DNA of 64,000 bases from Aggregatibacter sp. 2125159857 (lineage in GTDB: Bacteria; Pseudomonadota; Gammaproteobacteria; Enterobacterales; Pasteurellaceae), in assembly GCF_017798005.1 (NCBI RefSeq), contig NZ_CP072548.1, forward strand, positions 372,001-436,000. Reading direction: 5' to 3'. Position numbers and translations under genes: made by a program. Every line of letters begins with the position of its first letter. Positions within the stretch are counted from its first letter, which is position 1. The notes under the pieces were generated by a model. It saw only the letters and a program-made list of their open reading frames with translations. It did no database searches and had not been told where the DNA came from. Below are positions 25,094-28,004 of the stretch, one piece after another.

Positions 25094-25284
25094 TGAAAGC
25101 TCAAGAACTACGTACAAAAAGTGTTGAAGAGCTGAATGCTGAATTGGTTAACTTGTTAGGTGAGCAATTCAAGTTGCGTATGCAAGCAGCCACCGGTCAG
25201 CTTCAACAAACCCATCAGTTAAAACAAGTGCGTCGTAGTATTGCACAAATTAAAACTGTTCTAACCGAAAAGGCGGGTGAGTAA
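25093..25284 (+). CDS. rpmC: 50S ribosomal protein L29
   Basis: A 63-residue two-helix protein, [18 protein letters not shown] and ending in [12 protein letters not shown], typical of L29 at the tunnel exit. It overlaps rplP by one base and rpsQ by one base, consistent with tight translational coupling. Confidence 0.96.
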
Positions 25285-25541
25285 TGACTGATAAAATTCG
25301 TAGCGTGCAAGGTCGTGTAGTAAGTGACAAGATGGAGAAATCTTTCGTTGTTGCTATTGAACGCAAGGTTAAACACCCACTTTATGGTAAGTTTATCCGC
25401 CGCACAACTAAACTACATGTGCACGATGAAAATAACGAAGCTAAATTAGGTGATTTAGTAGAAGTTCGCGAATGTCGTCCGATTTCTAAAACTAAATCAT
25501 GGACTTTAGTTCGTGTAGTTGAGAAAGCAGTGATTGCTTAA
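25284..25541 (+). CDS. rpsQ: 30S ribosomal protein S17
   Basis: The 85-residue OB-fold protein contains the family block [27 protein letters not shown]. It binds 16S rRNA early in assembly. It is the last gene of the S10 operon; the spc operon does not follow directly because a two-gene AT-rich cassette and terminators intervene (25565-27540). Confidence 0.97.
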
Positions 25542-25564
25542 TTAACAACGAAAAGTAATAAAAT

Positions 25565-25597
25565 AAAAGCCAATAGTGTAAAGCTGTTGGCTTTTTA
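25565..25597 (+). terminator. S10 operon terminator
   Basis: AAAAGCCAA (25565-25573) pairs with TTGGCTTTT (25587-25595), followed by more T and A. A diverged second copy of this terminator lies at 27418-27446 on the far side of the cassette. Confidence 0.88.
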
Positions 25598-25603
25598 TTT
25601 TTA

Positions 25604-25643
25604 AAGTGCGGTTAAAATTTAATAAATTTTAACCGCACTTTTC
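25604..25643. repeat. Uptake-signal inverted pair, left flank of the cassette
   Basis: AAGTGCGGTTAAAATTT and AAATTTTAACCGCACTT are perfect inverted arms (signals at 25604-25612 and 25632-25640), followed by TTCTTTT. It can act as a second terminator and as an uptake signal. It is one of only two such pairs within the ribosomal protein region. Confidence 0.8.
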
Positions 25644-25663
25644 TTTTAGGAACTAGATTTCGC

Positions 25664-25742
25664 AAAGAAGTATACTTCTTTTAGGTGTTATTGACATAAC
25701 ACCTAAAACAATATTGATAAAAAATTTTAACATTACAATATT
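25664..25742. promoter_or_regulatory. Cluster of inverted repeats upstream of the cassette genes
   Basis: Three dyads are packed together. AAAGAAGTATACTTCTTT (25664-25681) is a perfect 18-bp palindrome. TTTTAGGTGTTAT (25679-25691) and ATAACACCTAAAA (25696-25708) form a perfect 13-bp stem with loop TGAC. AATATTG (25710-25716) and CAATATT (25736-25742) form a third. A possible -35 TTGACA lies at 25691-25696 inside the second dyad, with only a weak -10 near 25714. They may be operator sites, an mRNA leader structure or remnants of an insertion site. Nothing distinguishes these yet. Confidence 0.6.
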
Positions 25743-25755
25743 TAGAGGATTTTTT

Positions 25756-26688
25756 ATGGGACGTAAAAGTAAAGCTCGATATCAAGGGGAAGTGTTGGGC
25801 CTTCTAGTGAGTTTTGGAATTATTCTAGCTATCATTGCTTTTGTTATTTCACTTGTATTTTCTGCAGTCTTTTATGTAGGAGGTGCTATTGCTATAGCAA
25901 TTGCAATAGGTATTCCTTTGTTTTTATTGCTATCTATTCCTTACTATTTAGTTGGAATGAATAAGATTAAAGTAGAAGTTAAAAAATCAATTTCGGATTA
26001 TTGGTTATCTAGAGAGGAGAAAGAAGAATTAAAGTCTCTTTATCAAGCTTGGTTAAATGCAAAGGAAGAAGAAAATAGAATTGAGGATAAAATTAAAAAA
26101 CTCCATGATTATGCTGATGAGCAAGGTGTAAGCAAAAATATTGATGGTAGTTATTCTAGAAGAAGCGAGGTAGGTAAATCAATAATAAATTCTCTTACTA
26201 ATCTAGAGAATGAATTAGATCTTGCAAAGGATTACTCTCTTATGTGTTGGGAAGAATACAAGGATCTCGCCTCAACACCTTATTATAAGTGGAAAGCAGA
26301 TAGTAATAAATTAAGAGAAAAAGATAAATTTTATAGAAAGGTATGGGTATCACTTATATCTTTAATTTTTATAATTTGTATTGCTAGTACACTTTACATA
26401 ACTAGATATAATAAAATAATAGCAATTGACTATATAAATAATTTATTAAATCGCTTTGTTTCTCATGAATGGTTTTCGATTGGAAAAGAAACGGCTTTAG
26501 GATTACTTTCGCATCAATATTTTGAGTTTGTTGCTTTATTATTTATAAGTTCTCTAGTTTCTATTATTTTTTATGGAGTTGCTAATAAATATTCTATTTC
26601 AAAAAATAATAGATTTAAATATTCAGTGGAAAGACCTTCATCTTGTATAGATATGGATGAAATTGATGACTATGAGAGAACAGTATGA
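25756..26688 (+). CDS. Hypothetical membrane protein with central coiled coil (cassette gene 1)
   Basis: I do not recognise this 310-residue protein. It has two hydrophobic segments near the N-terminus (residues about 12-40 and 42-67), a charged Lys/Glu-rich region likely to be coiled coil (about 80-195), then two more membrane segments (about 195-216 and 257-277) and a short acidic tail. Both soluble parts may face the cytosol. The ATG at 25756 has AGAGGA 7 bases upstream; the frame is open to 25714 but without a ribosome site. The gene is strongly AT-rich and uses AGA for arginine, unlike the CGT-rich ribosomal genes on both sides, which points to horizontal acquisition. Gene 2 follows after 16 bases, so the pair is an operon. 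Confidence 0.8.
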   Translation: MGRKSKARYQGEVLGLLVSFGIILAIIAFVISLVFSAVFYVGGAIAIAIAIGIPLFLLLSIPYYLVGMNKIKVEVKKSISDYWLSREEKEELKSLYQAWLNAKEEENRIEDKIKKLHDYADEQGVSKNIDGSYSRRSEVGKSIINSLTNLENELDLAKDYSLMCWEEYKDLASTPYYKWKADSNKLREKDKFYRKVWVSLISLIFIICIASTLYITRYNKIIAIDYINNLLNRFVSHEWFSIGKETALGLLSHQYFEFVALLFISSLVSIIFYGVANKYSISKNNRFKYSVERPSSCIDMDEIDDYERTV

Positions 26689-26704
26689 ATACAGGGATAA
26701 ATTT

Positions 26705-27388
26705 ATGAAAAGAAATATTAATGAAGTAATTTCAAAATTTAAGAATGATCAACAAGATATTCAGCACCGCTATTATAGTTTTGATTTTTGTTATTTTCAT
26801 TTTCGTTCTTCGAAAGAAAGTGGAAAAATTGATATTGAAAAAAGTTGCCAAGTATTATGGAGTTATTTGGCAAGCTGGGGAATGCTGAGAGGATCTAGTT
26901 TTTTATTATGGAAAAATCCAGCCTATTTAAAAGATCTTGTTGAATGGATTTATGATCAATCTTTAAGTACATGGAATATTGATGTTGAGAACTATAAAGA
27001 AAATAGCCAAACTGTTCTAGATTTATATAAGGGAGCAGAAAAATATATTCTGAAAGGAAAAAATCATCAATCAGTTACTTTAGTGACAAAAGTTCTACTG
27101 GGTGTATTTGCTATTATTCCAGCATACGATCGTTTTTTTAGAGATTCATTTAGTGATATTGCAGGGAATGAATGTGGTTTTAGTACGCCGAATAAAAAAT
27201 CTTTGGAAATTATTTATCAATTTTATATAGAAAATAAAGAAGAAATTGAAAAATTAAGCAATGAAACTAAGGTGTTCGATTTTAATGGGCAACCGACAAA
27301 ATATCATTATTCAAAAGCAAAAATTATTGATATGTACGGCTTTCAGGTAGGATACCTAAAATCAGGAATAGATAACTCATTCCGATAA
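26705..27388 (+). CDS. Uncharacterised protein of a widespread family (cassette gene 2)
   Basis: This 227-residue soluble protein has no signal peptide or clear membrane segment. Its core LASWGMLRGSSFLL (near residue 57) and the later PAYDRFF block (near 140) match my memory of a widespread family of uncharacterised bacterial proteins found in accessory DNA; no function is known to me. The ATG at 26705 has AGGGA 7 bases upstream. The frame is open to 26657, overlapping gene 1, but those earlier starts lack a ribosome site. Codon use and AT-richness match gene 1. A terminator and an uptake-signal pair follow. Calling the pair a defence or toxin module would be speculation. Confidence 0.8.
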   Translation: MKRNINEVISKFKNDQQDIQHRYYSFDFCYFHFRSSKESGKIDIEKSCQVLWSYLASWGMLRGSSFLLWKNPAYLKDLVEWIYDQSLSTWNIDVENYKENSQTVLDLYKGAEKYILKGKNHQSVTLVTKVLLGVFAIIPAYDRFFRDSFSDIAGNECGFSTPNKKSLEIIYQFYIENKEEIEKLSNETKVFDFNGQPTKYHYSKAKIIDMYGFQVGYLKSGIDNSFR

Positions 27389-27417
27389 GTTTTTAGTTTC
27401 CATTAAGGAATAGAAAT

Positions 27418-27446
27418 AAAGCTAATAGGAAGTATCTTGGCTTTTT
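27418..27446 (+). terminator. Terminator after cassette gene 2 (diverged copy of the S10 terminator)
   Basis: AAAGCTAA (27418-27425) pairs with TTGGCTTT (27437-27444) with one wobble, followed by T and A. It resembles the terminator at 25565-25597 in stem, loop start (AATAG) and the following TTGGCTTTTTA. Confidence 0.75.
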
Positions 27447-27456
27447 AATCTCTTGA

Positions 27457-27485
27457 AAGTGCGGTAAATTTCAACCGCACTTTTA
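27457..27485. repeat. Uptake-signal inverted pair, right flank of the cassette
   Basis: AAGTGCGGT (27457-27465) and ACCGCACTT (27474-27482) form an inverted pair with a short spacer, followed by T residues. It mirrors the pair at 25604-25643. Confidence 0.78.
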
Positions 27486-27500
27486 GCAAACGGCTTAAGA

Positions 27501-27540
27501 AGAGGAAGGCAAATTATCGTTGCCTTTCTCTTTTTCTTTT
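27501..27540 (+). terminator. Strong hairpin overlapping the spc promoter
   Basis: AGAGGAAGGCAA (27501-27512) pairs with TTGCCTTTCTCT (27520-27531), 12 bp with one wobble, followed by TTTTCTTTT. It looks like an intrinsic terminator, and its right arm contains the -35 box of the spc promoter. Confidence 0.75.
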
Positions 27541-27548
27541 GATAGAAT
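27520..27548 (+). promoter_or_regulatory. spc operon promoter
   Basis: TTGCCT (27520-27525) and TAGAAT (27543-27548) are separated by 17 bp, the same -10 and a near-identical -35 to the S10 promoter. The predicted start near 27555 gives a leader of about 78 nt. Confidence 0.8.
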
Positions 27549-27553
27549 CCGCA

Positions 27554-27613
27554 ACCTGCCCGCCGTTCTCTTTTGACTGTGCGGACAGGTTCGTCCCGAA
27601 AGGGTGGTTTTTT
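27554..27613 (+). promoter_or_regulatory. Structured leader of the spc operon
   Basis: ACCTGCCCGC (27554-27563) pairs with GCGGACAGGT (27581-27590) with one internal mismatch. A CCC-GAAA-GGG tetraloop hairpin (27595-27604) follows and then six T (27608-27613). The second hairpin plus T run is a possible weak attenuator. I know of no described ligand. Confidence 0.5.
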
Positions 27614-27620
27614 AATTTAA

Positions 27621-28004
<384 letters not shown>

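Follow-up and report, generated by a model that had tools for sequence, protein, structure and literature searches.

Small Pasteurellaceae gene cassettes share a two-palindrome leader in front of different genes, and one of them lies between the S10 and spc ribosomal operons

The locus raises the question of how two AT-rich genes came to lie between the S10 and the spc ribosomal operons, and whether they work as a pair. In the window (the whole stretch of 64,000 nucleotides that was analysed) both genes occupy, on the plus strand, the gap between rpsQ, the last gene of the S10 operon and of own-genus type (25284..25541, ORF list), and rplN, the first gene of the spc operon (27633..28004, plus strand, ORF list). 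The original prediction of an AT-rich pair at this place was confirmed. GC is 0.288 in gene A and 0.287 in gene B, and the minimum among the 52 other selected window ORFs of at least 150 aa is 0.36. The predicted bias towards AGA arginine codons was borne out as well, with AGA and AGG making up 10 of 13 arginine codons in gene A and 3 of 7 in gene B, compared with 18 of 205 in the ORFs of the ribosomal cluster. Within an unusual set of cassettes, this one is an ordinary member.

Behind rpsQ follow, all on the plus strand, the intrinsic terminator of the S10 operon (25565..25595, terminator scan), which is similar in the empty sites of the genus, and a terminator-like inverted pair of uptake signal sequences (AAGTGCGGT; 25603..25641, terminator scan and sequence). 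The leader element (25657..25731, plus strand like the parts named after it) was matched by model R1 with an E-value of 2.0e-15, the window copy being among those used to build this model. It contains palindrome 1 (25665..25680, core AGTATACT) and palindrome 2 (25681..25706, core TTATTGACATAA, with the asymmetric centre TGAC), both placed by core search and alignment and spaced 21 bp centre to centre, about two helical turns. An extended -10-like TGnTAAA box (25715..25721, from the sequence and box statistics) comes next, and the separation from TTGACA to TAAA is 21 nt. Gene A (25756..26688, ORF list, model and hydrophobicity) starts at ATG 25756 and encodes a 310-aa membrane protein; 16 bp further on the same strand lies gene B (26705..27388, alignment and model). 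The latter most likely starts at ATG 26705, which is preceded by a purine-rich site and yields 227 aa, a length shared by six of the eight best-ranking clusters in the list; with this start gene B does not overlap gene A. At the end of the cassette, at approximately 27456..27484, a second inverted AAGTGCGGT pair able to form a hairpin was seen in the sequence, followed by the spc leader before rplN (27498..27632, flank comparison), which is nearest to genus g7. As to the claim that the pair has its own leader and terminator, the leader stood, as the two-palindrome element, and the 3' hairpin turned out to be the inverted uptake-signal pair, which is absent from the terminator-scan list.

The premise that ribosomal DNA is seldom interrupted failed at this junction in Pasteurellaceae. 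rpsQ and rplN were located in 140 Pasteurellaceae genomes and were linked and colinear within 20 kb in 87 of them; gap lengths refer to these 87, leaving out 32 genomes with the genes on separate contigs and 21 in which they were unlinked (one contig, inverted or distant). The gap measured 150-611 bp in 59 linked genomes and at least 810 bp (810-9295 bp) in the other 28, while the control junction secY/rpsM measured 273-308 bp in 140 of 140 genomes. The rpsQ/rplN junction is an insertion hot spot. According to Pfam, its inserts encode LRR proteins, an ion channel, radical SAM and Sel1 repeat proteins and OGFr-type proteins, and another encodes a membrane protein bearing paired CxxC motifs. One 9.3 kb insert (L086) holds nine genes that by eye resemble an operon for sugar-acid catabolism and include a TRAP-type transporter. 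A second cargo family, of about 197 aa and marked by the motif YSFATKYCSHHNP..FPIYD, turns up repeatedly in leader or junction cassettes (L117:672-1265, L118:670-1263, L115:3353-3952, L153:619-1305, L246:3086-3679, L245:1410-1997), where it adjoins LRR proteins, the CxxC-motif membrane protein or an ion channel; a PDB sequence search with this family gave no match. Instability of the ribosomal cluster is known in outline, since Brandis 2021 reported that Pasteurellales account for 17 of 51 gammaproteobacterial ribosomal operon cluster events, 14 times the average rate of the remaining orders, and proposed natural competence as a possible cause (PMC8046335). No title describing rpsQ/rplN insertion or palindromic cassettes of Pasteurellaceae was among the literature matches listed, which leaves absence from print unproven.

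The leader was found to be common to cassettes with different genes, and this sharing by unrelated cassettes had escaped the original prediction. A search for the two cores with the outer arms left free gave 21 matches in 20 of the 140 genomes and none for the reversed pattern, and a covariance model gave 88 matches in 60 of the 140. Both lists are incomplete, because G119 was found by the pattern and missed by the model, the filters of which lose some weak matches. Of the 295 genomes searched across the order, the model matched 14, all of them Pasteurellaceae and none from other families. Exact leader cores had no match in viral contigs, and Rfam 15 over 25500-27700 gave 27 matches, all below gathering scores and none spanning the palindromes; three sub-threshold matches touch the first 1-8 bases of the leader. 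Taken alone, the 12-base core TTATTGACATAA is not significant in the window (1 match against 0.65 expected with one mismatch allowed). A literature search on the leader letters returned no title on the subject among its matches.

Pairing within the palindromes is conserved. In an alignment of 19 of the 21 exact-core copies 99.4% of the cells pair, and none of 500 shuffles reached this value; L198 (near-identical to L197) and L201 (the divergent, less well paired copy of G119) were excluded, which favours pairing, and 6 of the 17 leader pairs are fixed by the search pattern. Ten of the 11 pattern-free pairs change on both sides, in 31 cells, and there is one G-U cell overall. When 45 non-redundant copies were counted, palindrome 2 had 478 of 495 Watson-Crick cells with 92 double changes, 2 G-T and 4 A-C cells, and palindrome 1 had 251 of 270 with 53 double changes, 9 G-T and 3 A-C cells; since these copies were found via a model built on the structure, the counts lean towards that model. 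Differing palindrome 2 arms were found in 10 of the 11 genomes with more than one readable copy, most of them fully paired, and G028 has three arm sets that are each paired at 8 of 8 positions. Imperfect copies occur in G104 and G122 (one each, at 5 or 6 of 8) and in G064 (variants with 7 and 6). Symmetry is probably maintained at the DNA level, either for its own sake or through template-switch repair of palindromes; quasi-palindrome correction by template switching could hold the arms symmetric without selection.

The context was taken for 84 of the 88 model matches. A first gene was called in 77 of these, with a forward ORF whose start lies 46-231 nt from that of the leader (at 76-92 nt in 48 cases), compared with 37 of 84 under the same ORF rule on the opposite strand. 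These 77 first genes form 42 clusters, the largest with 5 members. The nearest upstream ORFs of 78 copies likewise form 42 clusters, the largest of which is that of rpsQ (20 copies, 13 genera). No more than 5 kb behind rpsQ, and on its strand, stand 24 of the 88 matches, 22 of them within 600 bp. Other sites, named by eye, are the 3' side of atpC, selA/selB and the region upstream of rpoB. The TGnTAAA box is present at +50 to +72 in 24 of 68 leader copies (shuffles: mean 0.9, largest 5), and with one mismatch allowed TAAA starts 20-22 nt after TTGACA in 33 of 40 copies. In the selA/selB region of L156 two near-identical leaders stand about 3.8 kb apart, with gene B and, by eye, a Fic-like gene between them. 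In L244, L247 and L250, from two genera, leader cassettes lie shortly upstream of what appears by eye to be rpoB, and their cargo looks small and secreted or lipoprotein-like.

Judged from sequence, the leader is best read as a promoter or operator that acts at the DNA level. TTGACA within palindrome 2 and the TGnTAAA box 20-22 nt on would be its boxes, and the element would give the cassette its own expression behind a terminator. The 20-22 nt that separate TTGACA from TAAA exceed the spacing of an ordinary sigma-70 promoter and count against the promoter part of this reading. The DNA reading is favoured because the boxes would put the transcription start behind the palindromes. An RNA hairpin was disfavoured, as palindrome 2 of the 45 copies shows no excess of G-T over A-C cells (2 against 4); palindrome 1 leans the opposite way (9 G-T, 3 A-C). 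A bolder proposal, possible but doubtful, is that the leader is read by shape, as two extruded or folded DNA hairpins with an invariant TTGACA loop. A gene placed behind such a leader might then be a plug-in module that spreads by transformation and is parked behind strong operons, above all at S10/spc, with gene B as one defence module beside dozens of other kinds of cargo.

We consider it unlikely that the leader is a recombination site and not mainly a promoter, at which a recombinase or HUH-type enzyme would act on the folded single strand to move cassettes, as is the case for attC sites in integrons. Such a site would suit the persistence of pairing while the arm sequence drifts, also among copies within one genome, the tandem leaders with different cargo at selA/selB in G090, and the many insertion sites implied by the 42 clusters of upstream ORFs among 78 copies. 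However, a pure recombination site would need neither the narrow distance from leader to start codon nor the TGnTAAA box, and the flanks at rpsQ/rplN in the window show ordinary homologous exchange. The integron integrase profile TIGR02249 matched 0 of 140 genomes, a count of little weight given that the 14 control genomes gave no match either. Just as unlikely is a conventional operator of one conserved, family-wide dimeric regulator with the cassettes as members of its regulon. A dimer that reads sequence does not need arms that vary within a genome and yet remain mostly symmetric (10 of 11 genomes), and the invariant centre TGAC is asymmetric, even though palindromes centred 21 bp apart, close to two helical turns, and a forward orientation near genes would be expected of such an operator.

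Gene B points to a family of considerable size, with 1932 of 2175 candidate proteins at E≤0.001, in which K129 and D142 are invariant across 95 aligned sequences. The window member matched nothing in Pfam, NCBIfam or PADLOC at E≤1 (0 families in PADLOC 2.0.0), nor an HhH-GPD profile; across Pfam, PADLOC, NCBIfam and PHROGs, genes A and B gave nothing above cut-off or only weak matches that lack an assigned function. The predicted model of gene B (pLDDT 93.9) is almost all helix with two short strands and weakly resembles HhH-GPD DNA glycosylases: in the second-look fold comparison 13 of 16 rows were titled glycosylase or glycosylase homolog, with a best Z of 6.3, which is under the tool's caution level of 8. 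Foldseek gave no match at E≤0.001 to PDB structures or to viral models, and a PDB sequence search gave one chance match only (E 0.31). Kinship of gene B with the 197-aa cargo family, suspected because both have a Lys and, at similar spacing, an Asp after it, found no support in a profile comparison. Two junction cargo genes (L151:1951-2652 and L093:1271-2023) have a CGIEWGGG motif, which we take to resemble uracil-DNA glycosylases; the cargo L151:1951-2652 had no Pfam match.

Among the 140 genomes gene B is present in 12. It follows rpsQ in four genera, with a remnant in a fifth (G000, G119, G097, G084, G101). All 9 main-subfamily copies in Pasteurellaceae, one of them decayed, stand behind the leader, which is missing before the divergent gene B of G112, G113 and G021 and before the remnant in G101. 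This remnant (L119), still at the junction with 44 gene B residues, points to decay of a cassette in place. Gene B had no match in plasmids, and in phages one distant match was found (PV036438.1:1398-2039, 31.9% identity, an Oscillospiraceae phage record).

Defence had been offered as a guess, and for gene B it received some support from the neighbours. The survey covered 23 loci, 19 of them outside Pasteurellaceae, and the latter gave 34 nearest neighbouring ORFs no shorter than 100 aa, all scanned with PADLOC; 9 of the 34, at 8 of the 19 non-Pasteurellaceae loci, matched at E≤1e-30, a raw count without a random baseline. The matched neighbours are HamB, a type IIG enzyme, two type I restriction-modification genes, a type III restriction gene, PDC-S01, two PDC-S02 and an SNF2 helicase (a generic match). 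On the other side, genes 7-9 kb from gene B matched as often as the nearest ones (3 of 10: HamA, SoFic and TmtA; threshold 1e-20, all three below 1e-100). The gene B family thus often stands in defence-rich stretches, and the count carries no weight for adjacency itself. The most likely role of gene B would be that of a phage-defence factor with foreign or modified DNA as its target, possibly by glycosylase-like chemistry.

For gene A, a four-helix membrane protein with a coiled coil, as originally predicted, is plausible from the hydrophobic windows and the helical middle. Five hydrophobic 19-residue windows were found, the first three contiguous, with segments near both ends, and the predicted model (pLDDT 74.6) has a long helical middle. 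The 17 relatives comprise 14 proteins at 95-100% identity and three divergent ones at 38-67%. No PADLOC family matched at E≤1 and no PDB structure at E≤0.001 (Foldseek), and the matches of a PDB sequence search were mainly of the coiled-coil type.

The proposal that the two genes act together gained no support as far as a fixed pair is concerned. In 11 of the 12 genomes with gene B no convincing gene A was found, and the companions of gene B elsewhere are other membrane or secreted proteins. We regard a dedicated two-part effector system as quite improbable. Adjacency on one strand with 16 bp spacing, a common leader and a common terminator-like hairpin would fit it, as would the membrane proteins that stand before gene B in several relatives, but gene A is convincing in 1 of 140 genomes (two further weak matches concern the coiled-coil part) compared with 12 of 140 for gene B, the companions are unrelated, and in G122 gene B comes first after the leader. 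The best explanation is that gene A is an exchangeable membrane companion and not an obligatory half.

Horizontal insertion, as proposed originally, was upheld: both genes are missing in eight other genomes of the window's genus, the composition of the cassette differs and its right flank is foreign. The flanks were compared with those of 48 other genomes from nine genera with linked junctions. Within the window's own genus, identity is 0.94-1.00 for rpsQ, and the 62 nt behind rpsQ agree at 0.94 with two empty-site relatives from that genus. For the 135 bp before rplN, in contrast, the six best matches all belong to genus g7, at an identity of 0.85-0.88, and identity to the own genus is 0.67-0.75; rplN itself is non-discriminating. 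The g59 genome G119, with a gene B 89% identical to that of the window, has a g7-like right flank (0.90-0.93 vs 0.80-0.85), and in the g7 genomes G100 and G102-G104 the situation is reversed on the left, with 0.89 to the window and values down to 0.59 within their genus. Both g7 and g59 are presumably Haemophilus. Such a mosaic is what uptake followed by recombination in the flanks should produce. The cassette would thus have entered the chromosome by homologous recombination of taken-up DNA, for which the ribosomal flanks may have supplied the homology and the uptake signals may have aided entry; a donor of another genus (g7, presumably Haemophilus) probably gave at least the right flank. That the pair is ancestral in Pasteurellaceae and was lost from most lineages is very improbable, since its distribution is patchy (12 of 140) and its composition and right flank are foreign, despite gene B lying behind rpsQ in four genera with a remnant in a fifth.

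Taken together, these results show a population of small Pasteurellaceae cassettes that have a structured leader in common and not their genes; this one would have arrived by homologous recombination, with the leader as a putative promoter or operator, gene B as a putative defence factor and gene A as an exchangeable companion. To this reading as a whole we assign a probability of roughly 0.5. Its strongest new result is the shared leader, whose symmetry is kept while the arms vary and which stands before unrelated genes; its weakest link is the role of the leader. With the leader detected by the model in 60 of 140 Pasteurellaceae species genomes, reading the cargo behind it would help to find accessory genes. 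It also opens to test the way in which naturally competent bacteria trade accessory genes and express them when no dedicated mobile element is involved, and could contribute a mechanism behind the frequent rearrangement already known for the ribosomal cluster in Pasteurellales.

Several known systems invite comparison. In the available part of Brandis 2021 (PMC8046335) a shared leader or cassette population is absent, and the present work adds a census of one junction with a control junction. From HhH-GPD DNA glycosylases gene B differs by the lack of a sequence-family match, a weak Z and no HhH-GPD profile match. Brig1 and Brig3 are glycosylase genes that defend against phage, and many Brig1 homologues are located in defence islands, according to the available parts of the two reports (PMC11078745, PMC13160076); these defence glycosylases have the alpha/beta fold of the UDG superfamily, whereas the gene B model is almost all-helical. 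The uptake-signal terminators of Pasteurellaceae, as far as the available part of their description goes (PMC1852404), resemble the inverted AAGTGCGGT pairs with terminator-like hairpins at both cassette ends. They are general features of these genomes and distinct from the two-palindrome leader. Integron cassettes with attC are alike in combining unrelated genes with a short site in which pairing is kept and sequence is variable, and in occurring as tandem copies. By inspection, the attC core boxes are not the conserved positions of the leader (AGTATACT, TTGACA, TGnTAAA), and the leader differs in that it sits 5' of the genes, with promoter-like boxes.
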